Part shown: piece by piece, positions 12,568-64,000 of the stretch | Layout: every line of letters starts with the position of its first letter | Position numbering within the stretch: position 1 is the first letter of the stretch | Program-made: the position numbers and the translations under genes | Notes under the pieces: model-generated | Told to the model about the DNA's origin: nothing | What the model saw: only the letters and a program-made list of their open reading frames with translations | The model's database searches: none | Assembly (NCBI RefSeq): GCF_019297835.1 | Contig: NZ_CP079203.1 | Span: 3,848,001-3,912,000, forward strand | Direction: 5' to 3' | Source: Sphingomonas sanguinis | GTDB taxonomy: Bacteria > Pseudomonadota > Alphaproteobacteria > Sphingomonadales > Sphingomonadaceae | Length of the DNA: 64,000 nucleotides

Positions 12568-12637
12568 GTTTGCAGTTGGCGGTTACACATCGGGCAAAGT
12601 CGCAGGCATAGGAGCTTGCGATCTGCCGGGGACCGTC

Positions 12638-14476
12638 ATGTTTTCATCCTTGCCCATACCGAAAAAGATCGGTCTTTCGTTCACAGTCGTCGTTCTTTCC
12701 GTGCTGGTGATGATGGGGGTTCTGTGGTGGTCCCTGGCCAAGATCGAGGGGATGACGAAGCGGAGCGTCCTGGCGCAGGAGGTCTATACCAACACGCTGG
12801 AGATGGAGGGCGGCGTCCAGCGCGAGAACAGCCAGATGCGCGGCTTCCTCATCACTGGGGACGAAGCCTATCTAAAACAATATTTTACCGCGCGTACCGC
12901 CGAGACCGAGGCGGCGGCCCTGCTCGACAAGGAATTGGTGGACGATCCCAAGGCGCGCGCTGAGGTGGCTGCATCGCATGCCAGGATGGACGAATGGCGC
13001 CGCGACATCGGTGATCCGCTGATCGCGCGCAGCCGTACCGATCGCGAGGGCGCACAGGCCTGGCTTCGCGCCAATAGCGGGCGTGTGCGGGTCACGACGA
13101 TCCTGCAGCCGCTGCGCGATCTGCGGGCGCGGAGGCTCGACAGGATGGCGACGGTGCGGGCCGACCGCAGGATGGTGCTGCAGACGGCGCAATGGAGCCT
13201 GATCGTCGGCGGCCTGATCATGGTCGGAACCGCCATCGCGATGGCGGTGCTGCTGTCGCGCGCGTTGGGACGGCCGATCGTCCGGCTGACGGGGGTCATG
13301 GACGCACTGTCGCACGGTCGAAACGACATCGTCGTCCCCGATGCCGACCGGCGCGACGAACTGGGCAGCATGTCGCGCGCCGTGGTCGTCTTCCGCGACA
13401 CCGCCGTCGCCAAGGCGCGGTCGGATGCCGAGCAGAATGACGTGGTCGAGCGCATCGGCGGCGCGCTGGGCCAGTTGGCGGACTCGGACCTGACCGCCCG
13501 GCTCTCTGGCTTCCCGCCTTCCTATGCGGCGATCGAGCGCGACTTTAACACGGCGGTCTTGCGGCTGTCGGGTTCGCTGGGTGCGGTGCGCGTCAACGCG
13601 GCCGGGATCACCAGCGGCACGGTGGAAATGAACGAGGCCGCCGACGATTTGGCGCGCCGGGCCGAACAGCAGGCGGCAAGCATCGAGGAAACCTCGGCCG
13701 CGATGAACGAGATCGCCCAGTCGGTGACGGCCGCGGCGACCAAGGCGCAGTCGGCCGAGGCGATCGTCCGCAAGGCGAGCAGCGACGTCGCCAACAGCGA
13801 GGCGATCGTCCGCCGTACCGTGTCGGCGATCGGCGACATCGAACGCTCGTCCAACGAGATTGCCGAGATCATCGCGGTGATCGACGGCCTATCCTTCCAG
13901 ACCAACCTGCTGGCGCTGAACGCCGGTGTCGAGGCGGCCCGTGCGGGTGATGCGGGCAAGGGCTTCGCGGTCGTCGCCTCCGAAGTCCGTGCGCTGGCCG
14001 AACGCTCGGCCGAGGCGGCACGCGACATCAGCGCGCGGATCACGACCACGGTCGACCGGGTGCGCAGCGGCGTGGAGCTGGCTAACAAGACCGACGAGTC
14101 GCTGCGCCTGATCGCGACGGGCATGCAGGACATCACCGGACTGGTCGAATCGATCGCGGGCGGGGCGTCCGAACAGGCGACCAGCATCCAGCAGGTCAAT
14201 CTGGCGATCAACGATATGGACGGCGTGACCCAGGCCAATGCCGCGATGGTCGAGGAAGTCACCGCCGCCGTCCGCGCCCTGTCCACCGAAACCCGCGCGC
14301 TGGAGGAGCAGGTCAACCGCTTCCGCGTCGACGAGGCGGCGGCATCGTCCTTCGCGCACGCCGTGCCGATGCGCCGCGCGGCCCCGCCCGCGCCCGCTCC
14401 GGCACGGCGAGCGGCAAGCCCGGTGCAGGGCAATCTCGCCATGAAGCAGGACGAAGACGACTGGAGCAGCTTCTGA
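12638..14476 (+). CDS. Methyl-accepting chemotaxis protein
   Basis: This 612-residue transducer has a transmembrane helix at about 11-32, a helical CHASE3-like periplasmic domain to about 185, a second membrane helix at about 188-206, HAMP modules at 207-260 and about 265-315, and a cytoplasmic signalling domain. The hairpin tip is clear at about 411-460 ([20 protein letters not shown] then [20 protein letters not shown]). The C-terminus ends DDWSSF after an Ala/Pro linker, resembling the W-x-x-F tether for CheR/CheB. No che genes are nearby. Ligand unknown. Confidence 0.93.
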
Positions 14477-14508
14477 TCCTGCCCTGACCCCGCAGGACGG
14501 CTTTCGCG

Positions 14509-14547
14509 AAGGTCCGCAATCTCCCCCCGGCGGATTGCGGGCCTTTT
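14509..14547 (+). terminator. Rho-independent terminator after the chemoreceptor gene
   Basis: AAGGTCCGCAATC pairs with GATTGCGGGCCTT across a C-rich loop and is followed by TTTT. It starts 33 nt after the stop at 14476. Confidence 0.82.
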
Positions 14548-14599
14548 CATTATGACATGCGGGATTGTAAGTCGCGGCCTGCCGGGGCAAGCGGCGGAC

Positions 14600-14914
14600 A
14601 TGGATATTCCCCAACGCTATGCCGATTTCATCCAGTGGATCGGCGACGGCACCGGCATGGCCGACAGCCTGTTGCACGTCCATGCGGGCATGGCGGTGCT
14701 GTTCCTGGCGCGCGTCCTGACCCGCAAATCGCTATCCACCCCAATCCCGCTCGCCTGCGTCGCGCTGGCCGAGGCGGGGAACGAAATCCTCGACCGGCTG
14801 CATTATGGATCGTGGCGTTGGGACGATACACTGGGCGACATCGCCAACACCATGTTCTGGCCGACCATATTGTTCATCGGCCTGCGGATGCGATCCCCGC
14901 GCGGACGGCGTTGA
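14600..14914 (+). CDS. Small membrane protein, paralogue of the protein at 23281
   Basis: This 104-residue protein has two hydrophobic segments (about 28-50 and 80-98). It shares several motifs in order with the minus-strand protein at 23281-23637: TG-x2-DS-x-LH-x2-AGMA, E-x2-NE-x2-D-x-L and DI-x-NTM-x2-PT. The ATG at 14600 matches the conserved region better than an upstream ATG at 14552. Function unknown; the conserved acidic and His residues within membrane segments are unexplained. A palindromic repeat begins 14 nt after the stop. Confidence 0.7.
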   Translation: MDIPQRYADFIQWIGDGTGMADSLLHVHAGMAVLFLARVLTRKSLSTPIPLACVALAEAGNEILDRLHYGSWRWDDTLGDIANTMFWPTILFIGLRMRSPRGRR

Positions 14915-14928
14915 GCGGTATTTTTACA

Positions 14929-15059
14929 ATTCCTCCCCTGCCAGGGGATAAGGGGAGGGGGACCATCCGCAAGATGGTGGAGGGGTGTCCCCGCCATCGA
15001 GAGCGGGACACCCCTCCGTCAGGCCTTCGGCCTGCCACCTCCCCTGCCAGGGGAGGAAT
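14929..15059. repeat. GC-rich palindromic intergenic repeat, copy A1
   Basis: This 131-bp sequence is bounded by ATTCCTCCCCTG and its inverse, with inner inverted pairs GGAGGGGTGT/ACACCCCTCC and the hairpin AGGCCTTCGGCCT. A second copy (A2) lies at 23137-23275 with the same order of arms but a different central loop. It sits between a plus-strand gene and the 3' end of minus-strand cysS, so it may also work as a two-way terminator. Confidence 0.85.
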
Positions 15060-15067
15060 AGGTATTC

Positions 15068-16513
15068 TCAACCCTCCGGCAGTACCGGCTTCCAGTCCCA
15101 GCCCAGCGGATCGCCGTCCATCACCTCTACCCCGGCGGCGAGCAGCGTGTCGCGAATAGCGTCGCTCTTGGCGAAATCCTTGTCTGCCCTTGCCGCGCGT
15201 CGTTCGACCAGCTGCGCCTCGATGGCTGTTTCGTCCAGCGTGGCGTTCTTCGGCCGGGTGCGCAGGTCGGCGCGGGTCAGCGTCGCCAGTTGCAGCCCCA
15301 GTGTCGCATCGAAATCAGCGAGTGCCGCGAGTCGCACGCCCGGCGACAGTTTCTTGTCGCCCAGCATCTCGTCCAGCACGGGCAGCGCGCGCGGCGTCGC
15401 CAGATCGTCCGACAGCGCGGCATCCAGCCGTTCGCGATAGGGAGCCGCATCGCCCTTTTCCGGCGCATCGGCGCGGGCACGAAGCCCCTCGACCGTCTGC
15501 ACCAGCCGCTTGAGGCGCACCTGCGCAGCGGCGAGGCCATCCCAGCCGAACTCCATTTCTGAGCGGTAATGCGCCTGGAGGCACATCAGGCGGTAAGCGA
15601 GCGGGTGGAAGCCGCGATCCATCAGCGCCTGGAGCGTCAGGAACTCGCCCGACGACTTGGACATCTTGCCGGTGCGGTCGACCAGGAAGTTGTTGTGCAT
15701 CCAAATATTGGCGCCGCTATCGGGGGTGCAGCTATGCGCCTGATTCTGCGCGATCTCGTTCGGGTGATGGATCTCGCGGTGGTCGATGCCGCCGGTATGG
15801 ATGTCGAACTGCGTACCCAGATACTGCTTGCTCATCACCGAGCATTCCAGATGCCAGCCCGGCGCGCCCGGACCCCAGGGGCTGTCCCATTCCATCTGTC
15901 GATTCTCGCCCGGCGCGGAGGCGCGCCAGATGGCGAAGTCGGCCGGGTGCCGCTTGCCCGCGACGGGATCGATCCGGCTCTCGCCCTCGTCGTCCTGATG
16001 CCGGGCGAGGCGGCCATAATCGGGCACGGTCGTCACGTCGAAATACAGGCCGTCGGGCAGCCTATAGCAGTGCTTGTCCTCGATCGCCCTGGCGAAGTCG
16101 ATCATCTGGGGGACATGCTCGGTCGCCAGCGGGAAGCGGGTCGGCTCGGCAATGCCCAGATCCTTCAGGTTGCGCTTGAAGGCTTCGGTGTAATGCGCGG
16201 CGATCGCCCAGATATCCTGGCCACTCTTCTTGGCGGCGGCCTCCATCTTGTCATCGCCCGCATCGGCGTCGGAGGTCAGATGGCCGACATCGGTGATGTT
16301 GATGATATGGGTGAGAGGCCAGCCCTTCCAGCGCAGCACGCGCGACAGCGTGTCGGTAAAGACATAGGCGCGCAGATTGCCGATATGCGCATAATTATAA
16401 ACGGTTGGGCCGCAGGAATAGACGCGCACATTGGCCGGATCGATCGGTCGGAACGGCTCGGGCGCGCGGGTCAGGCTGTTGTACAGGATCAGCGGAGTGG
16501 CGGGTGCGGTCAT
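15068..16513 (-). CDS. cysS: Cysteinyl-tRNA synthetase
   Basis: This class I aminoacyl-tRNA synthetase charges tRNA-Cys. The 481-residue protein shows YSCGPTVYNYAHIGN (zinc Cys and the HIGH motif), HLECSVMSKQYLG with the second zinc region, and GKMSKSSGEFLTL (KMSKS motif). The ATG at 16513 has AAGG upstream; an in-frame ATG at 16531 would add six residues and is equally permissible. The stop lies 8 nt from the palindromic repeat A1. No operon partner on this strand. Confidence 0.96.
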   Translation of the reverse strand: MTAPATPLILYNSLTRAPEPFRPIDPANVRVYSCGPTVYNYAHIGNLRAYVFTDTLSRVLRWKGWPLTHIINITDVGHLTSDADAGDDKMEAAAKKSGQDIWAIAAHYTEAFKRNLKDLGIAEPTRFPLATEHVPQMIDFARAIEDKHCYRLPDGLYFDVTTVPDYGRLARHQDDEGESRIDPVAGKRHPADFAIWRASAPGENRQMEWDSPWGPGAPGWHLECSVMSKQYLGTQFDIHTGGIDHREIHHPNEIAQNQAHSCTPDSGANIWMHNNFLVDRTGKMSKSSGEFLTLQALMDRGFHPLAYRLMCLQAHYRSEMEFGWDGLAAAQVRLKRLVQTVEGLRARADAPEKGDAAPYRERLDAALSDDLATPRALPVLDEMLGDKKLSPGVRLAALADFDATLGLQLATLTRADLRTRPKNATLDETAIEAQLVERRAARADKDFAKSDAIRDTLLAAGVEVMDGDPLGWDWKPVLPEG

Positions 16514-51159: not shown

Positions 51160-52242
51160 ATGATCCGGCCGCGAAGCGGGGATGCACCGACCATGCGCCA
51201 ATTGGGCCGATCGCGGAGCCTCTATGCTCTGCGCGTGATGTTGCTGGGCGCAACGCTATGGCTGGCCCTCGCGGCGCTGGGGTTGGCGCCGGATGAGATG
51301 GTCCTGTCGGGTGATGTCATGCCCGCGCATGACCCGGTGCTGATCCGCGAAGGCGACCGCTATTACGCCTTTTCGACCGGCCAGCGCGACCGGCGACCGT
51401 TGGTGGCGCGAACCTCGCGCAATCTGCGACACTGGAGCCCGTTGCCCTCGCCCTTGCCCGATCTCCCCGACTGGGCGAAGGCGGCGGTGCCCGGTGCGCG
51501 CGAGATGTGGGCGCCCGACATTGCGCGGGTCGGTGGACGCTATCGGCTCTATTATTCGGTTTCCCGCTTCGGCTCGCAGCATTCGGCGATCGGGCTGGCG
51601 ACCGCGACGACGCTGGACCCCGATGCGCCCGGCCATGGCTGGCACGACGAGGGGCTGGTGATCGCGTCGCGCAAAGGCGATCCCTATAATGCGATCGATC
51701 CGGCCTTTGCCCGCGATCGGCAGGGGGGCGAGTGGCTGGCATTTGGCAGCTTCTGGGGCGGTATCCAGCTGGTTCGGCTTGACCCGCGAAGCGGCAAGCC
51801 TGCCGCCGGGGCCAGGCCGGTGATGATCGCCAGGCGCGGCGCGGAGGACAAGGCCGATGCGATCGAGGCGCCCTTCATCATCGATCATGGCGGCTGGTAT
51901 TGGCTGATCGTGTCGTTCGACTATTGCTGTCGCGGCGCCAAAAGCAATTACCATCTGCGCATCGGTCGCGCGCGGTCAATCGAGGGGCCCTATGTGGACC
52001 GTGCGGGCCGGGCGATGCGCGCGGGCGGCGGGACGGTGCTGCTCCAGGCCGATGCGGCGGGGCGCGACCGGTTTCGCGGGCCGGGTCATGCGGGCGTGCT
52101 GCACGACCGCGATGGACGCGACTATCTGATCTACCACGCCTATGACGCCGCCGCCGGAGGCGCCGCGACCTTGCGGGTCGCGCGGCTGCATTGGAATGAG
52201 GCGGGCTGGCCATTCGTCGAGCCGGACGAAGCCCGACGGTGA
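51160..52242 (+). CDS. Glycoside hydrolase family 43 protein
   Basis: This 360-residue predicted extracytoplasmic five-bladed beta-propeller enzyme is of the arabinan endo-1,5-alpha-arabinosidase type. The nucleophile-activating base lies in MPAHDPVL (Asp58), and the MWAPDIARVGGRYRLYYSVS, NAIDPAFARD, KADAIEAPFIIDHGGWYWL (acid Glu) and GPGHAGVLHDRDGRDYLIYHAYD segments follow the family pattern. N-terminal hydrophobic residues (about 24-43) act as signal or anchor. Start uncertain: ATG at 51193 would give 349 residues. It stands alone between receptor genes. Confidence 0.9.
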   Translation: MIRPRSGDAPTMRQLGRSRSLYALRVMLLGATLWLALAALGLAPDEMVLSGDVMPAHDPVLIREGDRYYAFSTGQRDRRPLVARTSRNLRHWSPLPSPLPDLPDWAKAAVPGAREMWAPDIARVGGRYRLYYSVSRFGSQHSAIGLATATTLDPDAPGHGWHDEGLVIASRKGDPYNAIDPAFARDRQGGEWLAFGSFWGGIQLVRLDPRSGKPAAGARPVMIARRGAEDKADAIEAPFIIDHGGWYWLIVSFDYCCRGAKSNYHLRIGRARSIEGPYVDRAGRAMRAGGGTVLLQADAAGRDRFRGPGHAGVLHDRDGRDYLIYHAYDAAAGGAATLRVARLHWNEAGWPFVEPDEARR

Positions 52243-52588
52243 TTCGGCATGCATCGATCGGTCGGACCTTGTCCCGGATCGTCCTCCGACCCCAACCGTG
52301 CCAAGAAAATGATTTTACTGGTATTTTGTCGGTTGAAAAAGACGGACAAGTGCGAGGCCCCTTCACAAGGGCCGCCGCATCGGCTTGCCCTCTGAATTAT
52401 AACCGGAATGACATATTATTAGCGCTACCATCCGTAACGCCGGGTAAACGTCTGGTGTGACCTAAAATCCACGACCTGACAGCCGCTTAACATTTTTGTT
52501 ATCTCTATCTTGACGCCGTTTCGTCATAGTCAGACAAATGCCCCCGTCACAGGCACCGAAAACTCGGGCCGTTTGGAGGGGAAAACTG
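52243..52588. other. Leader region of TonB receptor 2
   Basis: This 346-bp region contains no gene. It is AT-rich between 52300 and 52520 and holds the operator-like site at 52417-52430. GGAGGGGAAAA at 52575-52585 is the receptor ribosome site. The spacing from operator to ATG is 158 bp, which leaves room for a promoter on either side of the operator. Confidence 0.5.
52417..52430. promoter_or_regulatory. LacI-family operator-like site upstream of TonB receptor 2
   Basis: TATTAGCGCTACCA contains the 8-bp palindrome TAGCGCTA and differs at one position from TGTTAGCGCTACCA, the XylR operator of Caulobacter as I recall it from published work. A related site lies at 63886. It suggests control by a LacI-family regulator encoded outside the window. 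Confidence 0.6.
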
Positions 52589-55498
52589 ATGAAGCGCCAC
52601 ATCCTTTTGCTGTCGGTCACGCCATGGGCGTTGCTGGCCGCGCCCGCCATGGCCCAGTCGACGACCACGCCGCAACAGGCCGGAAGCACGGACGCCAACC
52701 CTCCCATCGAGACCCAGACGGCCACCGGAATCCGCCAGGATGTGAGCGAAGTACCGGACCGCAGCCCGGTCCAGGCCTCGACCACCGGCCTGCCTGAGGC
52801 GGAGACCGATCCGCGCGACATCGTCGTCACCGGCTACCGCGCCAGCCTGGGTTCGGCGCAGGCGATCAAGCGCAATTCGGATGCGATCCTCGACGCGATC
52901 GTTGCGCAGGACATCGGCAAGTTGCCCGACAATACGGCGGCGGAATCGCTCGCCCGCGTCACCGGCGTCCAGGTCAGCCGCTATAGCGACGAAGTGAACC
53001 AGGTGCTGGTCCGCGGCCTGCCCGACGTGGCGACGACCTTCAACGGTCGCGACATCTTCACCGCCGAGGGACGCCGCGTCGCGCTCCAGGATTTCCCGGC
53101 GGGCGCGCTGGCGGGCCTGGAAGTCTACAAGTCCGGGACCGCGGACCTGCTGGAGCCCGGCCTTGCGGGCCTCATCAACGTGCGTTCGCGTCGTCCGTTC
53201 GACTTCGAGAAGGGCTTCACCGTCGCGGGCGGCATCCGCGGCACCTATAACGACCAGTCGAAGAAGTTCGACCCGCAAGGCAACCTGCTCATCAGCCAGC
53301 GCGCCGACACCACGATCGGCGAGATCGGCTGGCTCATCAACGCCTCCTATACCCAGGCGCAGTATCGCAACGCCGTCCGTTGGGGCGAGGGCAACACCAA
53401 TTCGCCGACGGAGGGGACGACGGTGCTGCCGACCTCGGTTGGTCGCAATTTCCAGATCCCGACCGCGGTCGGCGTCTATAACGACAGCGGCAAGCGCTGG
53501 CGCCCGGCGGTCAATGCCAGCGTCCAGTGGCGCCCAGCGCACAATCTCGAACTCTATTACGACTTCCTCTATCAGGGCTATCGCGGCGATATCGCGAACG
53601 ACTGGTTCCGCGTTCCGCTGCTCGACAACAACCCGACGCTCAGCGACGTCGTGCTACGCCCCGGCCAGCCGCTTCAGGTGCAGAGCCTGACCAAGACCGG
53701 CGGCTATCGTCCCGAGGCCTATCGCAGCACGGCGAAGGGCTACACCAACACCTATCAGGCGGCGGGCGGCGCCAAATGGGATGTGGGTCGCGCGCATCTG
53801 TCGACCGATCTGGCCTATACCAACTCGGAATATGGCTCGGACGAATGGAGCTTCGACACGGCCTTTTCCAAGGTGCCGGTCGCCAACGTCAATTTCTTCG
53901 TCGATAACGGCGTGTCGTTCGATCTGCCCGGCTTCGACAATACCAATCCCGCCAATTATATCTGGCGCGGCTATTACGAAGCGACCTACCGCGTGCAGGG
54001 CAAGGGGTGGCAATGGCGCACCGATCTGGACCTGGAAACCGACCTGTCGCTGTTCCCCAAGCTGCAAATGGGTTTCCGCTGGACCGATCGCGACGCGTCG
54101 CTGAAGCGTGGCAACCGCTATGCCTATACCGAGCCGCTCGCGATCCCGCTGGCCGACGTACCGGCGGGCCAGCTGGGGCTGACGCAGAATGCGTTCCGCG
54201 GCAATCAGGGCTTCACCAGCTGGCTGATGCCGTCGCGTGACGGCATTGCGGGCAATGCGCCGCAGCTTCGCGACTATGCGTTCAACGCGCTCCAGCGGCT
54301 GGTCGCGGCCAATCCGGCCGATCAGGGTTATCGCGACGCGCTGAACCGCTTCTCGACCCCCAATGTCCAGCTTGACCCGTTGGCCGCCTTCTATGCGACC
54401 GAACAGACCTATGCCTTTTACGGGCAGGCCAAGTATGAGTTCAACATCGGCTCGGTCCGGTTCGACGGTATGCTCGGTACCCGCGTGGTCAACACGGTGG
54501 GCGAGTATCGCGGTATCTCGACGGTGCTGTTCGACGGCGTTCGTCGCAGCGAGGTTCGCACCACCCGCGCCAACTATGTCGACATCCTGCCCAACGCCTC
54601 GCTGCGCATCCGGCCCGACGACAAGCTGCAGATCCGCTTCGGCTTCACCAAGACGCGGACCAAGCCCGAGTTCGGCCAGCTGAACCCGGCGCTGAACATC
54701 GAGCAGAACACCCAAGCGGTCATCCCCAACCAGCCGCTCGATCCGCGCTTCCCGGCGGGCCTGAACACGCGGCCCAATGCCTATGGCAGCGGCGGCAACC
54801 CGGACCTGCGCCCGCTGACCTCGACCAACTATGACGCGACGGTCGAATATTATTTCTCGCCGACCGCCTCGCTGACCGCCGCCGTGTTCTATCGCGATCT
54901 CGACGGCTTCATCAGCAATTACGTCAACCGAACCATCGATCCCTTCTACGGCCTGATCGAGATCAACCGTCCCGAAAATGCGGGCAAGGGCCGGATCAAG
55001 GGCGTGGAAGTCGGCGGCCAGACCTTCTTCGACTTCCTGCCGGGCCTGTGGAGCGGCTTCGGCGTGCAGGCGAACGTGACTTATCTGGAAGGCAAGCAGC
55101 GTTACCCGGCCAATCTGTTCGCCGCGTCCGGCGGCACGACCGAACCGCCGTTCGTGCCGATCACGAACCTGTCGAGGTGGACGTACAATATCGCACTTTT
55201 CTATGAGAAGGGCGATGTGTCGACCCGCCTGTCGTTCAACAACCGCGATGCGTTCCTGAACGGCAACTTCATCAACGGCGACGGCTTCTACAATGGCGAG
55301 GGCACGACCCGTCTCCAGCGGCTCGACTTCGGCTTCAACTATAACATCACCAAGGAAATCACGATCGCCTTCGACGCGGCTAACCTGCTGGCCAAGCCGT
55401 TCAACAATTATCGCAGCTATGGCAACGGCCTGTCCTATCCGCGCGACGTGCGTGACGAAGGGCGGTACTACGGTATGGGAGTGCGCTTCCGCTTCTGA
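52589..55498 (+). CDS. TonB-dependent receptor 2, Xanthomonas/Caulobacter carbohydrate type
   Basis: This 969-residue receptor has a signal peptide (cleavage after PAMAQ), a TonB-box region (RDIVVTGYRASLGSAQAIK), and the plug signature of the TonB-Xanth-Caul family (IGKLPDNTAAESLARVTGVQVSR; VLVRGLPDVATTFNGRDIF). The barrel ends in GVRFRF. Members import oligosaccharides. The convergent operon with GH9 and GH1 enzymes suggests beta-glucan or cello-oligosaccharides as cargo, an inference from context. GGAGGGG precedes the ATG at 52589. Confidence 0.94.
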   Translation: MKRHILLLSVTPWALLAAPAMAQSTTTPQQAGSTDANPPIETQTATGIRQDVSEVPDRSPVQASTTGLPEAETDPRDIVVTGYRASLGSAQAIKRNSDAILDAIVAQDIGKLPDNTAAESLARVTGVQVSRYSDEVNQVLVRGLPDVATTFNGRDIFTAEGRRVALQDFPAGALAGLEVYKSGTADLLEPGLAGLINVRSRRPFDFEKGFTVAGGIRGTYNDQSKKFDPQGNLLISQRADTTIGEIGWLINASYTQAQYRNAVRWGEGNTNSPTEGTTVLPTSVGRNFQIPTAVGVYNDSGKRWRPAVNASVQWRPAHNLELYYDFLYQGYRGDIANDWFRVPLLDNNPTLSDVVLRPGQPLQVQSLTKTGGYRPEAYRSTAKGYTNTYQAAGGAKWDVGRAHLSTDLAYTNSEYGSDEWSFDTAFSKVPVANVNFFVDNGVSFDLPGFDNTNPANYIWRGYYEATYRVQGKGWQWRTDLDLETDLSLFPKLQMGFRWTDRDASLKRGNRYAYTEPLAIPLADVPAGQLGLTQNAFRGNQGFTSWLMPSRDGIAGNAPQLRDYAFNALQRLVAANPADQGYRDALNRFSTPNVQLDPLAAFYATEQTYAFYGQAKYEFNIGSVRFDGMLGTRVVNTVGEYRGISTVLFDGVRRSEVRTTRANYVDILPNASLRIRPDDKLQIRFGFTKTRTKPEFGQLNPALNIEQNTQAVIPNQPLDPRFPAGLNTRPNAYGSGGNPDLRPLTSTNYDATVEYYFSPTASLTAAVFYRDLDGFISNYVNRTIDPFYGLIEINRPENAGKGRIKGVEVGGQTFFDFLPGLWSGFGVQANVTYLEGKQRYPANLFAASGGTTEPPFVPITNLSRWTYNIALFYEKGDVSTRLSFNNRDAFLNGNFINGDGFYNGEGTTRLQRLDFGFNYNITKEITIAFDAANLLAKPFNNYRSYGNGLSYPRDVRDEGRYYGMGVRFRF

Positions 55499-55774: not shown

Positions 55775-55808
55775 GAAAAACCCCGCCGACCCTGCGACCG
55801 GCGGGGTT
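55775..55808 (-). terminator. Rho-independent terminator of the halogenase-GH9-GH1 operon
   Basis: On the minus strand AACCCCGCCGG pairs with TCGGCGGGGTT and is followed by TTTCGTGC. It lies 23 nt past the GH1 stop and would end the transcript beginning near 63731. Confidence 0.85.
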
Positions 55809-55831
55809 CGTCATTCATCAGGCTGTCGGGA

Positions 55832-57277
55832 TCAGACCAGCGCGTTGCGGCGGATCAGTTCCTTATACCACTGCGCGCTCAGCTTGGGCGTACGCTTCTG
55901 GGTGGCGTAATCGACATGGTGCAGGCCGAAGCGCAGGCCATAGCCATCTGCCCATTCGAAATTGTCCATCAGGCTCCAGAGGAAATAGCCCTTGAGCGGG
56001 TAACCCTCGACGGCGGCACGGCGGAACTGGCCCAGATAGTTGCGCAGATACATGATCCGGTCGCCGTCATCGACCAGCCCCTTGTCGTTCAGCTTGTCGT
56101 CGGCCGAGGTGCCGTTCTCCGAGATGTAGATCGCCTTCGGGTTCCACATTTCGCTGACCGCACGGACGCCCCAATAGGCGGCCTCGGGCCCGACATAGAG
56201 CCAGGGCGAGGCCATGCGCGGCGAATTGGGCAGATGCGGCAGCGGGGTATAGCCGCGCGGATCCTCCGGGTTCGCCTTCACGAAGGTCGGCGTGTAGATG
56301 TTCAGCGCCACGAAATCGAGCGGGCTGGCGATCGCCGCCATGTCGCCCGCCTGCACCTTGGGCGCATCGGCCCCGGCGCTCTTCAGATAGGCGTCGGTAT
56401 ATTTGCCCTCCATCACGGCGGTCAGGAACATGGCGTTCTCTTCGCGCATCGCCTTCTTCGTCGCATCGATATGCTCGGGCGTCTCGATGACGGGGACGAA
56501 GATGCTGGCGTTGTCGGCAATGCCGACTTCGGTACCCGCCTTGGCATTGGCGCGGATCGCCTGCACGCCCAGGCCGTGCGCCAGGCAGCCATGGTGGCGG
56601 ACCTGGTTCACCTGGCCCTGGGGCAGCTTCAGGCCCGGCGCATGGATGCCGACCATGTGGCCGAGGTCGGTGAAGCAGCGCAGCTCGTTGACCGTCATGA
56701 AGCGGTGGACGCGGTCGGACAGCTTGCCCGCCATGAAGCCCGCATAGTCGGCGAACGCCTTGGCCGTGTCGCGATTCTGCCAGCCGCCGGGCAGCGCCTG
56801 CGGCAGGTCCCAGTGGAACATGGTGACATTTGGCTGGATGCCCGCGGCCAGCAGCGCGTCGATCACGCGGTTATAATAGTCCAGGCCCTTCTGGTTGAAC
56901 TTGCCGCGACCCTCGGGGAAGATGCGCGACCAGGCGATCGACATGCGATAGGCCTTCACGCCGAGATTCTTCAGAAGCGCGATGTCCTCGTTATAGCGGT
57001 GATAGCTGTCGCAGGCGACGTCGCCGGTGTCGTTGTTCGCGACCTTGCCCGGCGTGTGCGAGAACACGTCCCAGTTGGTCAGGCCGCGCCCGTCTTCCTT
57101 CACCGCGCCTTCGATCTGATAGGAGGCGGTGGCGCAACCCCAGAGGAAATCCTTGGGAAAGCTCAGGTCCGACGCCGTGGCGGCTGCCGCGCGGGTGGCG
57201 GCCAGCGTGCCGCCGCCGGTGGCGAGAGCGGCACCGCCCATCGCCATGCCGGTCTTCATGAAATTACGACGGTCCAT
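55832..57277 (-). CDS. Glycoside hydrolase family 1 beta-glucosidase, Tat-exported
   Basis: This 481-residue protein begins MDRRNFMKTG with a twin-arginine motif (RRNFMK) and an Ala/Gly hydrophobic stretch, so it is probably exported folded to the periplasm. The GH1 barrel follows: FLWGCATASYQIEGA, FHWDLPQAL, nucleophile Glu387 in YISENGTS and FLWSLMDNFEW. The acid/base site is N197-E198-L199 instead of the common NEP. It is 61 nt downstream of the GH9 gene. Likely hydrolyses cello- or other beta-linked oligosaccharides made by GH9. Confidence 0.93.
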   Translation of the reverse strand: MDRRNFMKTGMAMGGAALATGGGTLAATRAAAATASDLSFPKDFLWGCATASYQIEGAVKEDGRGLTNWDVFSHTPGKVANNDTGDVACDSYHRYNEDIALLKNLGVKAYRMSIAWSRIFPEGRGKFNQKGLDYYNRVIDALLAAGIQPNVTMFHWDLPQALPGGWQNRDTAKAFADYAGFMAGKLSDRVHRFMTVNELRCFTDLGHMVGIHAPGLKLPQGQVNQVRHHGCLAHGLGVQAIRANAKAGTEVGIADNASIFVPVIETPEHIDATKKAMREENAMFLTAVMEGKYTDAYLKSAGADAPKVQAGDMAAIASPLDFVALNIYTPTFVKANPEDPRGYTPLPHLPNSPRMASPWLYVGPEAAYWGVRAVSEMWNPKAIYISENGTSADDKLNDKGLVDDGDRIMYLRNYLGQFRRAAVEGYPLKGYFLWSLMDNFEWADGYGLRFGLHHVDYATQKRTPKLSAQWYKELIRRNALV

Positions 57278-57338
57278 ATTCTGTCCTCTTCTGTAACTTT
57301 TGTAACGATGTTCGGGTGAATGGATGCTGTCGCCGCCG

Positions 57339-59141
57339 TCAGGGGCGGGTGGGCAGGGGTCGGGTCAGATCGGTGGCCAGCCAGACGAGCGGCGCATTCC
57401 AGTTGATCGCGACCTCGTTGTGCGCATAGGCGCGCGCGTCGTCGATCCAGCAGCGTGTGCCCATGCACTTACCCTTCAACGGTGCGGAGGCCGGTTCGGG
57501 AAAGACGGTGCTGTTCGCCCCGCCGCTCAGCACGCCCGGCGGCGGGCCGGGCAGCCTGGTGTCGAACTGATGCGCCCAGAAACGATGATGCGGGTTCTGC
57601 ATCGGCTTCCATCCGAAACCGCTGACATAGCTCTGGTCGAGCGGATTGCGGCCCAGCACATAGTCCATCGCATCGACCGCCCCGTCGCGGTAGCGCGCCT
57701 CGCCGGTGAAGCGCGCCGCCAGCGCGAGTATCTGCCCGCGCCCCAATATCCCGCTGTTCGATCCCCAGTGATAGGCGGTCGAGGCATAGGGGATGTGATA
57801 GCCCGACCGGGTTTCCTCGGCGAGGAACCGGTCGGCCAGCGCGATCAGCTTGGCCCGCGCCGCCGCGCGTTCGGCGGGGCTGACGCCGGTCGCGGTCGCC
57901 AGCGTGATCGTGCCCAGCGCGGCGGTGCTGCCCCAGCTCGGCTCGCCGGTCAGCGGGGCGGCATGGAGCGGCATCTTGCGTAGCGATTCGGCCAGTTCGG
58001 GCATGCCGGTCGCGGCATAAAGCTCGGCGGTCGCCCAATAGAGTTCGTCGGACAGCTCGCCATCGCCATAACCGCCGCTGCCGTCGAACGCTTGTGCGGC
58101 ATAGACGTCGGGGTTGCGCAGCGCCGCCCGGTACGCCTTGCCCGCCGCGACCAGGCAGCGCCGGGCGAATTCGTCGTCGATCCCCCGCCAGATGCGCGAA
58201 CATTGCGCGGCGGTCGCGGCGAGGTTCAGCGTCGCGGCCGTGCTGGGCGGGAAGAGCAGGCGCTCCTCCTGATCGTCTGCGGGGGCGGTGGGCAGCTTGG
58301 TCCAGTGGCGATCGGCGATCTTGTGGTGCGCCATGCCCGACGCATCGACCGGCGTCAGCCGCAACGGCCCGCGACCCTGCCGCCCGAGCGGCAGTTCCAT
58401 GGTCTTGCCGTCGGGCACCTGCATCGCCAACAGGAAGCGCATTTCGAAACGCGTCTCGTCGAGCAGGTCGTTGATGCCGTTCCCCGCCTCGGGCAGTGCG
58501 GCGCTGCCATCGGAGAAGGGGGGCGAGGCCGCATCCACCTCATAGAGATTTTGCAGCATCCACAGCGCGATGCCGCCATTGACGACATATTTGCCCTGAT
58601 CGCCCGCATCATACCAGCCGCCGGTCACGTCCAGCGTATAGGGACAGCCCGGCCAGTCGGTGCCCGCCTGATCGAGCCCCTTGAAGCAGGTCACGACCTC
58701 TTTCGCGTGCCCCGCCGCCCGCGCCCATTGCGGACCGCCCGCGAAGCGCGCGTCGATCGCCACCCCGGCACGCTGTTGGTAGAAGAAATTGAGCGAGGCG
58801 TGCGACAGCGGACGATAGACATCGGCCGCGATGGTGAAGGGGTGGCTGGTGCGGCCATCGACCTTCAGGCGATAGGTGCCAGGCGTGCGGAACGTGCCGA
58901 AGTCGATCTGCTGCACCGTATCGCCCGAGGCGGCGTCGGGGCCGAAGACCGTCGCCTGCCCGCGCGCGACCGTGCGGCCCTTTTCGTCGAGCAGCTCCCA
59001 AGGCAAGGGCGCGCCGTCCTTCGCGACGATCGCGCGCTTGGCGGTGTCGGGGCGGAAGCCGATCTGGTTGAGATGCGGCCCCGGCGCTTCTCCCGCGCCG
59101 GTCGCCGCCAGCGCCAGCAGCGGAAGGATCACGCGCGTCAC
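57339..59141 (-). CDS. Glycoside hydrolase family 9 endoglucanase-like protein
   Basis: This 600-residue secreted protein has a signal peptide (about 1-19), an N-terminal Ig-like CelD_N domain (about 20-105; LNQIGFRPDTAKRAIV) and a GH9 catalytic (alpha/alpha)6 domain. The catalytic base region is GGWYDAGDQGKYVVNGG (Asp178, Asp181), the HHRFWAHQ segment contains the family His, and the general acid Glu is in AYAHNEVAINWNAPLVW. It overlaps the upstream halogenase gene by 4 nt, so it is co-translated with it. Confidence 0.92.
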   Translation of the reverse strand: MTRVILPLLALAATGAGEAPGPHLNQIGFRPDTAKRAIVAKDGAPLPWELLDEKGRTVARGQATVFGPDAASGDTVQQIDFGTFRTPGTYRLKVDGRTSHPFTIAADVYRPLSHASLNFFYQQRAGVAIDARFAGGPQWARAAGHAKEVVTCFKGLDQAGTDWPGCPYTLDVTGGWYDAGDQGKYVVNGGIALWMLQNLYEVDAASPPFSDGSAALPEAGNGINDLLDETRFEMRFLLAMQVPDGKTMELPLGRQGRGPLRLTPVDASGMAHHKIADRHWTKLPTAPADDQEERLLFPPSTAATLNLAATAAQCSRIWRGIDDEFARRCLVAAGKAYRAALRNPDVYAAQAFDGSGGYGDGELSDELYWATAELYAATGMPELAESLRKMPLHAAPLTGEPSWGSTAALGTITLATATGVSPAERAAARAKLIALADRFLAEETRSGYHIPYASTAYHWGSNSGILGRGQILALAARFTGEARYRDGAVDAMDYVLGRNPLDQSYVSGFGWKPMQNPHHRFWAHQFDTRLPGPPPGVLSGGANSTVFPEPASAPLKGKCMGTRCWIDDARAYAHNEVAINWNAPLVWLATDLTRPLPTRP

Positions 59142-60751
59142 AGCAGCGGGCCCTTGGCCTGCACCGTGCCGCTTGTCCGCGCGAAGTCGAACCCGTCCTG
59201 TCCGCCGCGCGCCGCCGTCATGGCGGGGGCGAGCGGGGAGGGGGCGGTCATGCGCAGGAAATCGCCATGGCTGGGCATCCGCGCGGCGGTGTCGGCATAA
59301 CCGGCGTGCATCTGTGCCAGCGCCTGCGCGACCAGATCCTCGTCCAGCGCATCGGCGGCGGGTTCCCAGCTTTCGGGCACCAGCCCCTGGCCCAGGCAGA
59401 CTGCGACCCAGCTGGGGTTGCTGAACAGGTCATAGCCTTCGCGGAACAGCCGCCCCTTCCCCGACCACAGCGCAATCTTGCGCGCGAGACTATCGGGCAC
59501 CTCCATGGTGCGCACCCGGTTCCAGAAGGGCGTGTCGTCGCGCCGCGTCGCCTTGTAATGCAGGATGATGAAGTCGCGCACATCCTCATACAGGTCATGC
59601 ATCTGGCGGTTGAACTCGTCGCGCTCGGCGGGGTCGAAGCGTTTGTCGGGGAACAGCGCGGTCAGACGCTGGATCGCGGCCTGGACCAGATGGATGCTGG
59701 TCGATTCCAGCGGCTCCAGAAAACCGCTCGACAGGCCCAGCGCCACGACATTGCGGTTCCAGCTCTGCCGCCGCCGCCCGGCGGTGAAGCGCAGATGGCG
59801 GGGATCGCCCAGCAACTCGCCCTCCAGGCTGCCGAGCAATTGCGCCTCGGCCGCCTCGGCATCCAGATAATCGCTGCAATAGACCAGGCCGTTGCCCATC
59901 CGGTGTTGCAGCGGAATGCGCCATTGCCACCCGGCGTCACGCGCGGTGGCGCGGGTGAAGGGATCGGGCTCGACCGGGTTGGGCAATGCGCACGGGGCGG
60001 CGACCGCGCGGTCGCAGGGCAGCCACTGCGCATAGCTTTCATAGCCGGTTTCCAGCGCCTCCTCGATCAGCAGCCCGCGAAAGCCCGAGCAGTCGATGAA
60101 CAGATCGCCCTCGATCCGCCGTCCATCGGCCAGCGTTATCGCCTCGACATAGCCATCCTCGGGCCGCAGGTTGACCGCGTCGATCCGCCCCTCGACCCGC
60201 GTCACCCCGCCGCGCTCGGCATAGCCGCGCAGATAGCGCGCATAGAGCGAGGCGTCGAAATGGAAGGCGTAGAACAGCTCGCGGATCGGCGAGCGCGCAT
60301 CGGGCTTGGCGCGACCGAACTTGCCGGCCTTCGCCGCGACCGCGCTCATCGACCATTCGGCAATGTCGGGCAGCGCGCGGCGGCTGCGTTCGCGCAAATA
60401 GAGCTGGTGGAAATGCACGCCCTGCAAATCCTGGGCATGGCGGCCGAACGGGTGGACGTATCGTTCGCCCTTGTCGCCCCAGTCGACGAACTCGATGCCC
60501 AGCTTGAAGGTGCCGCCGGTCTTGGCGAGGAAGTCGTTCTCGTCCAGCCCGAGCATCTGGTTGAAGGTGATGATCGGCGGGATCGTCGCCTCGCCGACAC
60601 CGACCGTGCCGATCTCCTCGGACTCGACCAGCGTGACATGGGTATAGCCATTGTTGAGCAGCCGGGCGAAGGCGGCGGCGGCCATCCATCCGGCGGTGCC
60701 GCCGCCGACGATGACGACCCGGCGGATCAAATGGTCGGAATGGGGAGTCAT
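59138..60751 (-). CDS. Flavin-dependent (tryptophan-type) halogenase homologue 1
   Basis: This 537-residue protein of the tryptophan-halogenase family has an FAD motif VGGGTAGW (15-22), VGVGEATIP (50-58), a Lys at the PrnA Lys79 position (Lys83, TFKLGIEF), the halogenase signature WxWxIP (275-280) and FLEPLEST with Glu349 at the PrnA Glu346 position. All catalytic features are intact. The ATG at 60751 is the family start. It overlaps GH9 downstream and homologue 2 upstream by 4 nt. Related genes beside TonB receptors are known (BrvH of Brevundimonas, Xcc proteins of Xanthomonas). Substrate unknown. Confidence 0.92.
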   Translation of the reverse strand: MTPHSDHLIRRVVIVGGGTAGWMAAAAFARLLNNGYTHVTLVESEEIGTVGVGEATIPPIITFNQMLGLDENDFLAKTGGTFKLGIEFVDWGDKGERYVHPFGRHAQDLQGVHFHQLYLRERSRRALPDIAEWSMSAVAAKAGKFGRAKPDARSPIRELFYAFHFDASLYARYLRGYAERGGVTRVEGRIDAVNLRPEDGYVEAITLADGRRIEGDLFIDCSGFRGLLIEEALETGYESYAQWLPCDRAVAAPCALPNPVEPDPFTRATARDAGWQWRIPLQHRMGNGLVYCSDYLDAEAAEAQLLGSLEGELLGDPRHLRFTAGRRRQSWNRNVVALGLSSGFLEPLESTSIHLVQAAIQRLTALFPDKRFDPAERDEFNRQMHDLYEDVRDFIILHYKATRRDDTPFWNRVRTMEVPDSLARKIALWSGKGRLFREGYDLFSNPSWVAVCLGQGLVPESWEPAADALDEDLVAQALAQMHAGYADTAARMPSHGDFLRMTAPSPLAPAMTAARGGQDGFDFARTSGTVQAKGPLL

Positions 60752-62217
60752 CGGGCAAGGCGCCTCATCTGGGCCGCGCGCCACTGCGCATGGGCCGGAA
60801 CATGGGGAAGGGCGGCGGCGATCGCGTCGGTCATCCGCGCCATGGCGGTATTCACTTGCGGCGCAGGGACGCCGTGGACCAGCGGGTCGATGCGACGGGG
60901 AAGATATCCTTGCCCGAGCAGGATTGCGGCCCAGCTGTCGCGGGTGAAGGTCTCTTCCTCGTAAAAGGGCAGGCGACCCCGCTCGCCGAACTGGCCGAGC
61001 GTATGGGCCAGCGACGCAGGGAGTTCGGCCTTCGCCACCGCCTGCCACATCGGTTCGGGGCGGCGGGCGGTGCGGTAATGCGCGGCCAGGAAATCGCGCA
61101 CCCGCTCTGCCTCGGTCAGGGTCTGGCGATTGAAGTCGGCGGCCTCGACCTCGGCCATGGCGCTGTCGGGCAGCATGGTGATCAGCCGGTCGATCGCGCT
61201 CAGCGCCAGATGCAGGTTGCACCATTCCAGTGGTTCGACCTGCGTCGCCGCGTCACCGATCGCGATACAGTTGCCGCGCCATGGCTGGGGCCGGGTGCCG
61301 GGGCGGATGACGATGGGGGCGTCGACCACGGCGCCGTCGCGGGCCAGCATCGCAGCGGCCTCGGCATCGGACAGATGGGCGCTGCCATAGGCCATGCCGA
61401 CCTGCTCGCCGCTCGACCAGAGCCAGCCCGCCGCATGGGCGGTGACGGGCGTCAGCACCGGCGCACCCTCGCCCGCCATCTGCGTGCCCAGCAGCACCCG
61501 GTCGCAGGGCAACCAGTCGCGCCAGTCCTGCCACGCATCGTCGATGCTGCCCCGCAGCAGCGCGGCGGGGCCGGTCGCATCGATATAGAGATGCGCGGTC
61601 AAAGGTGCGCCATGCTGCACTGCGATAGCGGTCACATGGCCGGTCGCATCGACCTGGACCTGAGCGATCGAATCCGTGACCTCGCGGACCCCGACATGCA
61701 GGGCGAAGGCCCGCATCATCGCGACCTGGCGGGGGAGGTCGAGCGTCAGGCCATAGTCATGCCCGGCAAAGGGTGTGCCCGGCGACGGGGGCACGAAGCC
61801 ACCCGCCCGCGCCAACTGTGCCGCCGGGCAATAGGCGTCGAACGGCGCCGCGCGGCCGTCGCGCGCGGCGCGAACCCAATGGAGGTGAAACGCCGCCGGG
61901 CCGATCGCATGACCGTAGCCGTCATAGGCATGGACATAGTCGGGCAGCCCCTCCGCCCAGCCGGAGAAGCGCGTGCCCAGCCGATAGCCCGCGCCGGTCC
62001 GCGTCACCCCGTCATCCTCGCCGATGCCCAGATCGGCATGGAAACCGGGCAGCGAGGGCAGGGTGCAGGCGATCCGATCGGCGAGTGCGTCATGGGCGGG
62101 CGGGGTGGCGAGCAGCGTGACGTCCAGGAACGGTGCGCGGCGCTTCAGCGCGGCGGCGGCGCTCCAGCCGGTCAGGCCGCTGCCCACGGCCAGCACATGG
62201 CGAATGGGGGCGCTCAT
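60748..62217 (-). CDS. Degenerate flavin-dependent halogenase homologue 2
   Basis: This 489-residue protein aligns over its length with its neighbours: FAD motif VGSGLTGW (11-18), GYRLGTRFSGW, YIDATGP, VEPLEW and the C-terminal helices (VRDFLAAHYRTARR). However, the catalytic Lys is Arg79, the VGVGEATIP segment is lost, WxWxIP is reduced to WLWSSG, and the Ser-Thr after Glu331 is Trp-Cys. It therefore probably does not halogenate. It overlaps homologue 3 and homologue 1 by 4 nt each. It may be a flavoprotein with another activity or a partner of the active paralogues. Confidence 0.82.
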   Translation of the reverse strand: MSAPIRHVLAVGSGLTGWSAAAALKRRAPFLDVTLLATPPAHDALADRIACTLPSLPGFHADLGIGEDDGVTRTGAGYRLGTRFSGWAEGLPDYVHAYDGYGHAIGPAAFHLHWVRAARDGRAAPFDAYCPAAQLARAGGFVPPSPGTPFAGHDYGLTLDLPRQVAMMRAFALHVGVREVTDSIAQVQVDATGHVTAIAVQHGAPLTAHLYIDATGPAALLRGSIDDAWQDWRDWLPCDRVLLGTQMAGEGAPVLTPVTAHAAGWLWSSGEQVGMAYGSAHLSDAEAAAMLARDGAVVDAPIVIRPGTRPQPWRGNCIAIGDAATQVEPLEWCNLHLALSAIDRLITMLPDSAMAEVEAADFNRQTLTEAERVRDFLAAHYRTARRPEPMWQAVAKAELPASLAHTLGQFGERGRLPFYEEETFTRDSWAAILLGQGYLPRRIDPLVHGVPAPQVNTAMARMTDAIAAALPHVPAHAQWRAAQMRRLAR

Positions 62218-63731
62218 GCCGCCACCATCGGGCAATAGCGTTCCAGAAAGGCGCGGTGGTCGGGCCGCATGGCGACTTCGGCAGCGATCTCGCTGCGAAG
62301 CGATTGAACGGCCTGAACCAGATCGCCGGTCCCCGCCACATCGGCACGCGGGTCCCAGCCTTCGGGGACGATGCCCTGGCCCAGATACACCGCGATCCAG
62401 CTGGCATCCAGGAACACGCCCTCGCGATACTTCACCACCCGGCCGCGACGGCGCCATAGCTCCAGCTTTTCGCCCAAGCTGTCGGGAATCGCCATGGTGC
62501 GGACATAGTTCCAGAAGGGCGAATCGTCGCGCGACGTGGCGTGGTAATGCAGGATCAGGAAGTCCCGGATCCGGTCATATTCCAGATCGATGACCCGGTT
62601 GAATTCGTCGCGGTCGGACGCTTCCATCCGGCGGCCGGGGAACAGCTCGATCAGCGCGGTGATCGCCTGTTGCACCAGATAGATGCTGGTCGATTCGAGC
62701 GGCTCCAGGAAACCGCTAGCCAGCCCGATGGCGACGCAATTGCCGACCCAGCTTCGCCGCCGCCGCCCCGCCTTGAAGCGCAGCAGGCGCGGCTCGGCCA
62801 GCTTCTCGCCCTCCACGGCCTCTTCCAGCGCGCGGGCGGCATCGCCGTCGCTGATGAAGTCGCTGGCATAGACATAGCCATTGCCGGTGCGATGCTGGAG
62901 CGGGATGCGCCAGCGCCATCCGGCGGGCATGGCGATCGCGCTGGTATAGGGGGTGACGGCGGTCTCGGTCCGGCACGGCATGGCGACGGCGCGGTCGGTC
63001 GGCAGCCATTTCGACCAGTCCTCGAACGGTTCGTCCAGCGTCTGGCCCAGCAGCAGCGAGCGGAAACCCGAGCAGTCGATGAACAGGTCGCCCTCGACCC
63101 GTTCGCCATCGGCCAGCGTGACCGAACGGATCAGCCCGCTCTCGCCGTCACGCTCGACATCGACGACCATGCCCTCGGTGCGCACCGCACCCGCTTCCTC
63201 CGCCAGGCTTCGCAGATAGGGGGCGAACAGCAGCGCATCGAATTGATAGGCATAGCCGAAAGTGGAACTCAGGCCGCCCCGGCCCTGATCGGGATGCTCG
63301 AACCGCGCCTCGCGCGCCAGGGTACAGGCATAGGATAGCTGGTCCAGCGGCGGCAGATCCTGTCCCTCGCGCGCCAGCCGCGACCAGTAATGGTGGAAAT
63401 CGATCGCCCCCGCGCCGCGTCCGAACGTGCCGAACGGGTGGATATAGCTGTCGCCGATCCGGCCCCAATCGCGAAACTCGATGCCCAGTTTGAAGGTGGC
63501 CCGGGTGCGCGCCATGAACTCCGCCTCGGGGATTCCCAGGCGTTCGTTGAAGGAGCGGATATGGGGCAGAGTCGCCTCGCCGACGCCGACGACACCGATC
63601 GCCTCGGACTCGATCAGGCGGACCGTGCATTGTCCCGAAAGAAGACGAGTCAGGGCCGCGCCGGCCATCCAGCCCGCCGTACCGCCGCCCACAATGACGA
63701 CCCGCACCACGTCGTTTGTCACTTTCGTCAT
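62214..63731 (-). CDS. Flavin-dependent (tryptophan-type) halogenase homologue 3
   Basis: This 505-residue protein has FAD motif VGGGTAGW (14-21), VGVGEATLP, catalytic Lys81 (TFKLGIEF), WRWRIP and FLEPLESTSIYL with the catalytic Glu. It is clearly related to homologue 1 but diverged. The ATG at 63731 follows GGGGGTGG; an in-frame TTG at 63761 is less likely. It is the first gene of the five-gene minus-strand operon ending at 55832. The promoter and an operator-like site lie in the 245 bp upstream. Confidence 0.92.
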   Translation of the reverse strand: MTKVTNDVVRVVIVGGGTAGWMAGAALTRLLSGQCTVRLIESEAIGVVGVGEATLPHIRSFNERLGIPEAEFMARTRATFKLGIEFRDWGRIGDSYIHPFGTFGRGAGAIDFHHYWSRLAREGQDLPPLDQLSYACTLAREARFEHPDQGRGGLSSTFGYAYQFDALLFAPYLRSLAEEAGAVRTEGMVVDVERDGESGLIRSVTLADGERVEGDLFIDCSGFRSLLLGQTLDEPFEDWSKWLPTDRAVAMPCRTETAVTPYTSAIAMPAGWRWRIPLQHRTGNGYVYASDFISDGDAARALEEAVEGEKLAEPRLLRFKAGRRRRSWVGNCVAIGLASGFLEPLESTSIYLVQQAITALIELFPGRRMEASDRDEFNRVIDLEYDRIRDFLILHYHATSRDDSPFWNYVRTMAIPDSLGEKLELWRRRGRVVKYREGVFLDASWIAVYLGQGIVPEGWDPRADVAGTGDLVQAVQSLRSEIAAEVAMRPDHRAFLERYCPMVAA

Positions 63732-63976
63732 CCACCCCCGACCCGGTGATTCCCGGGCCAATTTCTCATTTCATGCCGTGCGTCGGGTCCTGCCGCAATC
63801 CACCGACAGGGGGAGCGTGGCAGGAATGTCGCACCTTGTCCCGGATCGGACGTTCTTTAAGTTAAACATCTTGTCGAAATGTTGCTGGTAGCGCAATCAC
63901 GAGTCTGTGAAACGTGTCGAAAGGCACGATCGCGACCGAACCACGCGACGCCAATGGGGCGCGCGCCAAGGGGGGG
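63732..63976. other. Divergent promoter region with operator-like site
   Basis: The region between the halogenase operon and the partial gene at 63977 contains no gene. TGGTAGCGCAATCA at 63886-63899 matches the inverse of the TGTTAGCGCTACCA-type operator at 12 of 14 positions and has GGTAGCGC intact. AT-rich sequence at 63850-63880 (TTTAAGTTAAACATC) could hold a promoter for either direction. Confidence 0.55.
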
Positions 63977-64000
63977 ATGACCATCATGCGCAGCGCTGCG
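63977..64000 (+). CDS. Start of a gene cut by the window edge
   Basis: ATG at 63977, preceded by AAGGGGGGG, opens the frame MTIMRSAA; a second ATG in frame is at 63986. The ribosome site and the position downstream of the operator-like site support a real gene, and the position fits another TonB receptor or a regulator of the locus. Only 8 codons are visible. Confidence 0.5.

Follow-up and report, generated by a model that had tools for sequence, protein, structure and literature searches.

The flavin-dependent halogenases BrvH and Xcc4156 have been purified and their structures solved. In the available portions of the two reports, both are described as having open active sites that do not take free tryptophan; larger substrates or peptides are proposed, and the natural substrate is left open (PMC5945002, PMC7336383). 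A second halogenase gene, 42.7% identical, lies upstream of BrvH (PMC5945002, same portions). Here we describe a related locus in a 64,000-nt stretch of Sphingomonas sanguinis DNA (G000:C1:3848001-3912000, hereafter the window; the genome measures 4.37 Mb in two contigs), where a minus-strand row at 55832-63731 reads, 5' to 3', hal3, hal2, hal1, GH9 and GH1. It differs from the BrvH and Xcc4156 cases in that intact halogenase copies and a pseudo-halogenase form one overlapping array by a TonB receptor gene. The word TonB is absent from the main text of both papers (PMC5945002, PMC7336383). The genes on which the comparison turns are the following.

63977-64000, plus strand: first 24 bases of the divergent TonB-dependent receptor gene, which runs on to genome position C1:3915441 (TIGR01782, 643 bits)
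62214-63731, minus strand: hal3, BrvH-type flavin-dependent halogenase homologue, directly upstream of hal2 (PF04820, 619 bits)
60748-62217, minus strand: hal2, pseudo-halogenase (PF04820, 314 bits)
59138-60751, minus strand: hal1, BrvH-type flavin-dependent halogenase homologue (PF04820, 648 bits)

The divergent receptor, a second one placed at the edge of the window, had been missed by the initial annotation. To see how this arrangement recurs, an alignment of hal2 was scanned over one genome per species (84,980 species). The scan returned 56 loci, 47 of them in records titled Sphingomonas; three on short contigs (L081-L083) were dropped from the locus counts, leaving 53 with enough flank. 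Records near the window's genome may be omitted from this set, in which Sphingomonas yabuuchiae and S. parapaucimobilis provide the closest named loci, their hal2 being 92-95% identical. The divergent receptor, hal3, hal2 and hal1 occur in this order in 53 of 53 loci (hal2 by construction), and 30 loci carry a further halogenase gene, hal4. Because the scan patterns contained the EPLEW and EEETF motifs of hal2, the presence of hal2 and of a Trp after EPLE is partly built in; the frequencies of hal3, hal1, the receptor, GH9 and the arginine discussed below are not. Altogether, these comparisons of gene order and sequence show that a receptor-linked halogenase module exists and stays with its receptor across loci. 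Some ordinary halogenases may be present in a separate protein set (808 from 7,999 scored candidates, 120 of them listed). Records titled Arthrobacter sp. TPD3018 (L047) and Microvirga sp. SRT01 (L062) carry typical Sphingomonas arrays, and these genomes are probably mislabelled.

Residues were compared at the GxGxxG motif, the catalytic Lys (K79 of PrnA), the catalytic Glu (E346) and WxWxIP. The alignment of locus sequences left out hal1 of L022 and hal4 of L062, which have a stop within the aligned stretch, as well as pieces shorter than 350 residues (hal1, hal3 and hal4 of L076, hal2 of L081-L083, hal4 of L082). The catalytic Lys is kept in 56/56 hal1, 54/54 hal3 and 30/30 hal4 proteins, and every aligned sequence of the three also retains the Glu, the Ser after EPLE and the Trp, Ile and Pro of WxWxIP. 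GxGxxG is kept in hal1 and hal3 where aligned, the first two Gly being present in 33 of 54 hal3 with gaps at a cut N-terminus in the other 21. The same motifs are found in BrvH (6frl), which is the best solved relative of hal1 (547 bits), and in Xcc4156 (6y1w). Judged by these residues, hal1 and hal3 are flavin-dependent (tryptophan-type) halogenase homologues with the halogenase residues intact.

The initial annotation counted three halogenases, which proved wrong for the middle gene. In all 55 hal2 proteins (the window's, that of a second array in the same genome, and those of the 53 loci) Arg replaces the catalytic Lys. A Lys-to-alanine change at the same position abolished BrvH activity (PMC5945002, available portions). 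The Glu of the flavin adenine dinucleotide (FAD) loop is kept in none of the 55. The Trp of WxWxIP remains, with the Ile kept in 4 and the Pro in 1 of 55, and the Ser after EPLE has become Trp in 47, a figure biased by the scan pattern. An AlphaFold (AF2) model of hal2 has a mean predicted local distance difference test score (pLDDT) of 92 and a template modelling (TM) score of 0.90 to BrvH. It also matches MibH (5uao; TM 0.81), which is of the same fold class and acts on a peptide (PMC5945002, in part); MibH is distant in sequence and part of lanthipeptide synthesis. In sum, hal2 departs from halogenases at the catalytic Lys, WxWxIP and the FAD-loop Glu, and agrees with them at E346 and in its predicted fold. 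Ratios of nonsynonymous to synonymous substitution rates (dN/dS) against six relatives are 0.13-0.27 for hal2, 0.07-0.15 for hal3 and hal1, and 0.13-0.21 for GH9. By alignment and model, hal2 is shown to be a pseudo-halogenase, in which the catalytic Lys is lost while the predicted fold and the signature of purifying selection are retained.

The faster evolution of hal2 relative to hal1 and hal3 could also mark a decaying pseudogene between two ordinary halogenases, and hal2 is in pieces at L076, but its neighbours and the receptor are broken there too. Fixation of the Arg, dN/dS values far below 1 and similar to those of GH9, conserved overlaps with adjoining genes, and the grouping of pseudo-halogenases from two families in one clade make this explanation barely credible, and it was rejected, L076 being an exception or a poor assembly. 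In that complete genome the receptor and all halogenase genes are split over frames, which may reflect errors in sequencing or a module that is decaying as a whole.

Alternatively, the proteins might carry out non-halogenating flavin oxidase or monooxygenase chemistry on a sugar-derived or redox substrate, with hal2 as a flavin-handling partner. The first two Gly of GxGxxG are kept in 53 of 53 aligned hal2 proteins, which have Asp (52) or Glu (3) at the position of the GLxSG Leu of hal1, hal3 and hal4, which speaks for this reading; halide use, moreover, is not readable from sequence. Complete retention of the Lys, Glu, Ser and WxWxIP residues in hal1, hal3 and hal4 argues in the opposite direction, and we regard this explanation as unlikely.

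The pairing of hal3 with hal2 extends beyond the 53 loci. In a sample of 40 genomes of the same order, from which 47 stretches were taken at PF04820 matches (those below about 75 bits being left out), eight genomes, the window's included, carry pseudo-halogenase arrays. Eight arrays were thus added to that of the window, seven in other genomes and one in this genome (C1:38087-42269, L022); they span two families. In the window array and in the eight others, the pseudo-halogenase gene immediately follows a hal3-clade halogenase gene read from the same strand, and within the sample this clade held only pseudo-halogenase partners. The pseudo-halogenases of the eight have Arg, Ser or Val at the catalytic Lys position, the Val (L139) falling in a poor alignment stretch. 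The hal2 of L139 and the whole of L153 were left out of the first array comparison, L139 being restored for the tree. In this tree (IQ-TREE fast search, 61 chosen sequences) the pseudo-halogenases form one clade (SH-aLRT 99.6) whose branching largely mirrors that of the partner clade, with L139 and two close Sphingomonas loci as exceptions. Two further loci, L137 and L152, have pairs of intact, more divergent halogenases (WxWxID, WxWxIG) by SapC and receptor genes, with no pseudo-halogenase.

That halogenase genes sit beside TonB receptors, as the initial annotation had stated, was borne out. Each of the seven halogenase loci in the genome, which together hold 11 genes, has a TonB receptor gene no more than 2 kb away; by rough arithmetic on 82 receptor matches, about one tenth of the genome is that close to a receptor. 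Among 58 halogenase arrays sampled, 37 have a receptor within 1.5 kb and 5 more have one within 2 kb behind SapC and cupin genes. The receptors of pseudo-halogenase arrays fall within one clade of 16, all 16 of them halogenase-linked. Since receptor, hal3 and hal1 are found in 53/53 loci and GH9 in the available flank of 35/53, the halogenases track the receptor more than GH9. More surprising is the pairing of a halogenase with a pseudo-halogenase, and the tie of this pair to a clade of receptors.

The reading we prefer, plausible though held with reserve, is that the receptor-linked module acts on a polypeptide, with the pseudo-halogenase as partner subunit of hal3. A polypeptide is suggested because the open sites of BrvH and Xcc4156 have prompted proposals of larger substrates and because many relatives encode a cupin resembling FIH and JMJD5. 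These two are protein hydroxylases. The relatives' Cupin_8 gene lies directly downstream of the last halogenase in 35/53 loci, and its product keeps HxD..H in 38/38; FIH and JMJD5 are its closest PDB relatives, over a match of about 110 residues only. All three Cupin_8 genes of the window's genome sit in halogenase loci, the window's array itself having none. From gene linkage, the receptor is the leading candidate for this polypeptide.

In the proposed mechanism, hal3 and hal2 would form a mixed dimer in which hal2 may hold or position a large substrate. hal3 and, separately, hal1 (and hal4 where present) would halogenate or oxidise aromatic side chains of a cytoplasmic polypeptide, the likeliest candidates being the linked receptor prior to its export and a peptide working with the receptor. 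The FIH/JMJD5-like enzyme encoded in the gene row of many relatives would also hydroxylate this polypeptide. GH9, GH1, GH43 and a neighbouring GH31 enzyme would digest the imported sugar and be exchangeable cargo. A more speculative extension, which we put forward as a possibility of lower probability, is that sphingomonads run a dedicated maturation system for a clade of TonB receptors, in which an obligate halogenase/pseudo-halogenase pair, further halogenases and often a FIH-like hydroxylase would chemically modify the receptor or a partner peptide while still in the cytoplasm, ahead of export.

Several observations count against the preferred reading. The window's own lineage is without hal4 and cupin. 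The second catalytic residue, Glu E346, is retained in 52/55 hal2 proteins, so that some chemistry may remain possible. The deepest node uniting the hal3 partners has low support (59), and long branches call for caution. No receptor was recognised by profile within 2 kb in 16 of the 58 arrays, some of which adjoin large untyped genes, and halogenase-linked receptors do not form one clade. Comparison of 44 linked with 16 unlinked receptors, column by column, gave no aromatic column common to all linked ones; the sharpest Trp contrast (59% linked vs 6% unlinked) may follow clade. By Trp content the two groups could not be separated by eye. With no universal column, the notion of a shared receptor tryptophan was rejected, and the receptor as substrate is something we infer.

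Simpler arrangements were also seen. Five single-halogenase loci (L026, L116, L120, L128 and L132) have the order receptor, SapC, Cupin_8, halogenase, which suggests that the module also exists in a simpler form; L023 has the SapC, Cupin_8, halogenase and receptor gene set in divergent layout. A receptor-DUF6445-halogenase locus (L027:5016-10162) occupies part of the 97.7-kb contig G000:C2, and a long open reading frame beside it (12516-15437) resembles, by eye, a mobilisation relaxase. Since this locus is on a small contig with a relaxase-like reading frame, receptor-halogenase loci may be mobile.

Downstream of the halogenases, the row and its surroundings contain the following features.

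57339-59141, minus strand: GH9 glycosidase, CelD_N (N-terminal Ig-like domain) plus GH9
55832-57277, minus strand: GH1 beta-glucosidase (TIGR03356, 547 bits; cut-off 478.5)
about 55776-55809, minus strand: predicted intrinsic terminator of the operon, a 14-pair stem followed by five U
52538-55498, plus strand: convergent TonB-dependent receptor (TIGR01782, 560 bits)
51160-52242, plus strand: GH43 (arabinanase/arabinofuranosidase-like; family profile match)

The first four genes of the row overlap by 4 nt, with ATGA at 62214-62217 (hal3/hal2) and 60748-60751 (hal2/hal1) and GTGA at 59138-59141 (hal1/GH9); GH9 and GH1 are 61 nt apart. Elsewhere, 4-nt overlaps join hal3 and hal2 in 38/52 cases (1 nt in 8 more), hal2 and hal1 in 52/55, hal1 and hal4 in 31/32, hal4 and the cupin gene in 26/30, and hal1 and GH9 in 15/15 adjacent cases. 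Because the same overlaps recur in other loci, they go beyond chance. The terminator is absent from the output of a pattern-based scan; a 67-nt piece folds at -29.1 kcal/mol (z -2.15), equal stability being reached in 6 of 200 shuffles. Coordinates, codons and folding agree with the five-gene layout, the overlaps among the first four genes and the single terminator originally described, so that hal3-hal2-hal1-GH9-GH1 as an operon is supported at the level of sequence. Profile matches likewise confirmed the convergent TonB receptor and the nearby GH43 enzyme. The GH1 N-terminus resembles, by eye, a twin-arginine translocation (Tat) signal, and the protein has NEL beside the acid/base glutamate, where we take NEP to be usual.

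The original interpretation of the locus stood in its operon layout and in the adjacency of halogenases to receptors. Its count of three halogenases was wrong, and the idea that coupling to a cellulase explains the function found no support. From that coupling it had been proposed that the halogenases share one substrate with GH9, acting on aromatics set free along with the glycan or on an aromatic attached to it. The adjacency is not unique to this strain: GH9 lies within the available flank of 35/53 loci, directly downstream in 22, farther along on that side in 3, past the receptor in 9 and in the receptor-hal3 gap in 1. This recurrence at different positions argues that GH9 is tied to the receptor's sugar, and together with the unbroken series of hal1/GH9 overlaps and the ability of the relative BrvH to brominate free indole in vitro it lends the proposal some substance. 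Other members of the module, however, keep different company. GH9 is not in the available flank of 18/53 loci, some of them short-flanked; in the same genome, one halogenase locus (L025) adjoins an alpha-amylase gene and the second array (L022) adjoins GH5, esterase and GH3 genes, while same-partner arrays in three other genomes adjoin GH10, two of them GH3 too. The pairing of hal3 with hal2 would moreover be left without account. We therefore disfavour halogenation of glycan aromatics, which seems quite improbable; GH9 is an exchangeable but recurrent cargo of the module.

The sugar itself is more probably xyloglucan. The genome has one strong GH9 gene, a second match scoring 33 bits, just above cut-off. 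Nearest relatives of the GH9 are cellobiohydrolases, the xyloglucanase BoGH9A coming third. The divergent receptor is followed by a small gene that has no Pfam match, a GH31 gene and a phospholipase-C-type gene. The closest relatives of the GH31 are the alpha-xylosidases 7kmp, 2xvg and 5jou (BoGH31A among the nearest), and a GH31 occurs in 17/53 loci, of which 11 are close relatives of the window and one has a short, weak match. Between the divergent receptor and GH31, the small gene encodes a 192-aa protein (L021:11688-12266) that is conserved in the window's clade and has a secreted-looking start. A plain beta-glucan or cellulose substrate, also considered, is weakened by the GH31. Xyloglucan is not typically an aromatic-substituted polymer.

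In the Xanthomonas XyGUL, a GH31 alpha-xylosidase and two TonB receptors are likewise found, and GH9 and GH43 help xyloglucan breakdown (PMC8245568, in part). GH74, GH35 and GH95, which belong to the XyGUL, were not recognised among the typed genes here, no search having been aimed at them. Similarly, CUT loci of Xanthomonas and Caulobacter, mentioned for Sphingomonas as well, place a TonB receptor beside sugar-degrading enzymes (PMC1790865, in part), and the window locus has both. No inner-membrane transporter or sugar regulator was seen among the typed genes of the locus (L021 being only partly typed). Since GH31 resembles alpha-xylosidases and GH9 and GH43 assist in Xanthomonas, the sugar of the window's clade is likely xyloglucan, and the locus, from its gene content, is probably centred on TonB-receptor uptake of xyloglucan oligosaccharides. 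With GH31 in only 17/53 loci and GH10 and GH3 neighbours elsewhere, the sugar of the wider family may differ.

Two operator-like sites precede the receptors.

63886-63899: LacI-type operator-like palindrome TGGTAGCGCAATCA, between hal3 and the divergent receptor (consensus match)
52417-52430: second operator-like site TATTAGCGCTACCA, upstream of the convergent receptor (consensus match)

The consensus used, TGGTAGCGCTACCA, is one we take to be that of Caulobacter and Xanthomonas sugar regulons; its letters are absent from PMC1790865. In the window alone, 3 matches vs 1.74 expected are not significant. In the hal3-receptor gaps, a best match with at most 3 mismatches is found in 41/53 loci vs 0.7/53 in simple shuffles; the 53 include 12 close relatives, the position of the site varies, and the L058 stretch is 3.9 kb. 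No good match (4 to 7 mismatches) came from the gaps tried at the genome's six remaining halogenase loci, and genome-wide the pattern occurs 10 times with at most 2 mismatches, less often than a reversed control pattern (119). Both receptors may share a regulator, given a site before each and the 10 genomic sites. Operator-like palindromes are also present at G000:C1:305094 and 402301, near other TonB receptor genes, and perhaps mark other sugar loci of the same regulator family.

A sugar-type site between receptor and hal3 would suit a module that, on sensing sugar, makes a small halogenated signal or inhibitor such as bromoindole, the pseudo-halogenase being regulatory. BrvH does make 3-bromoindole at a low rate. 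Many separate receptor-linked copies in one genome would fit a secreted signal poorly, and we give this explanation little weight.

Among the matches listed in a search of open PMC titles and abstracts, a scope in which subscription papers mostly do not figure, none dealt with a halogenase-receptor association or a pseudo-halogenase. The words halogenase, SapC and cupin are absent from the main text of the CUT-locus paper (PMC1790865), and the XyGUL paper, in its available portions, contains no mention of halogenase (PMC8245568). In a freshwater Sphingomonas, a tryptophan halogenase gene was among colony-morphology genes, on the basis of one insertion (PMC11340318, in part).

For BrvH-type enzymes, the gene neighbourhood gives a testable answer to the question of substrate, namely the receptor clade with which they travel and the intact partner beside every pseudo-halogenase observed. 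Should the two truly work as a pair, in-vitro studies of isolated proteins may have missed a subunit. If the substrate is indeed a polypeptide, halogenation would count among the modifications that outer-membrane transporters undergo and would have a link to the uptake of plant cell-wall sugars. Should the maturation system exist, it would represent a halogenating post-translational modification of an outer-membrane transporter, with a pseudo-halogenase as the substrate-holding subunit.

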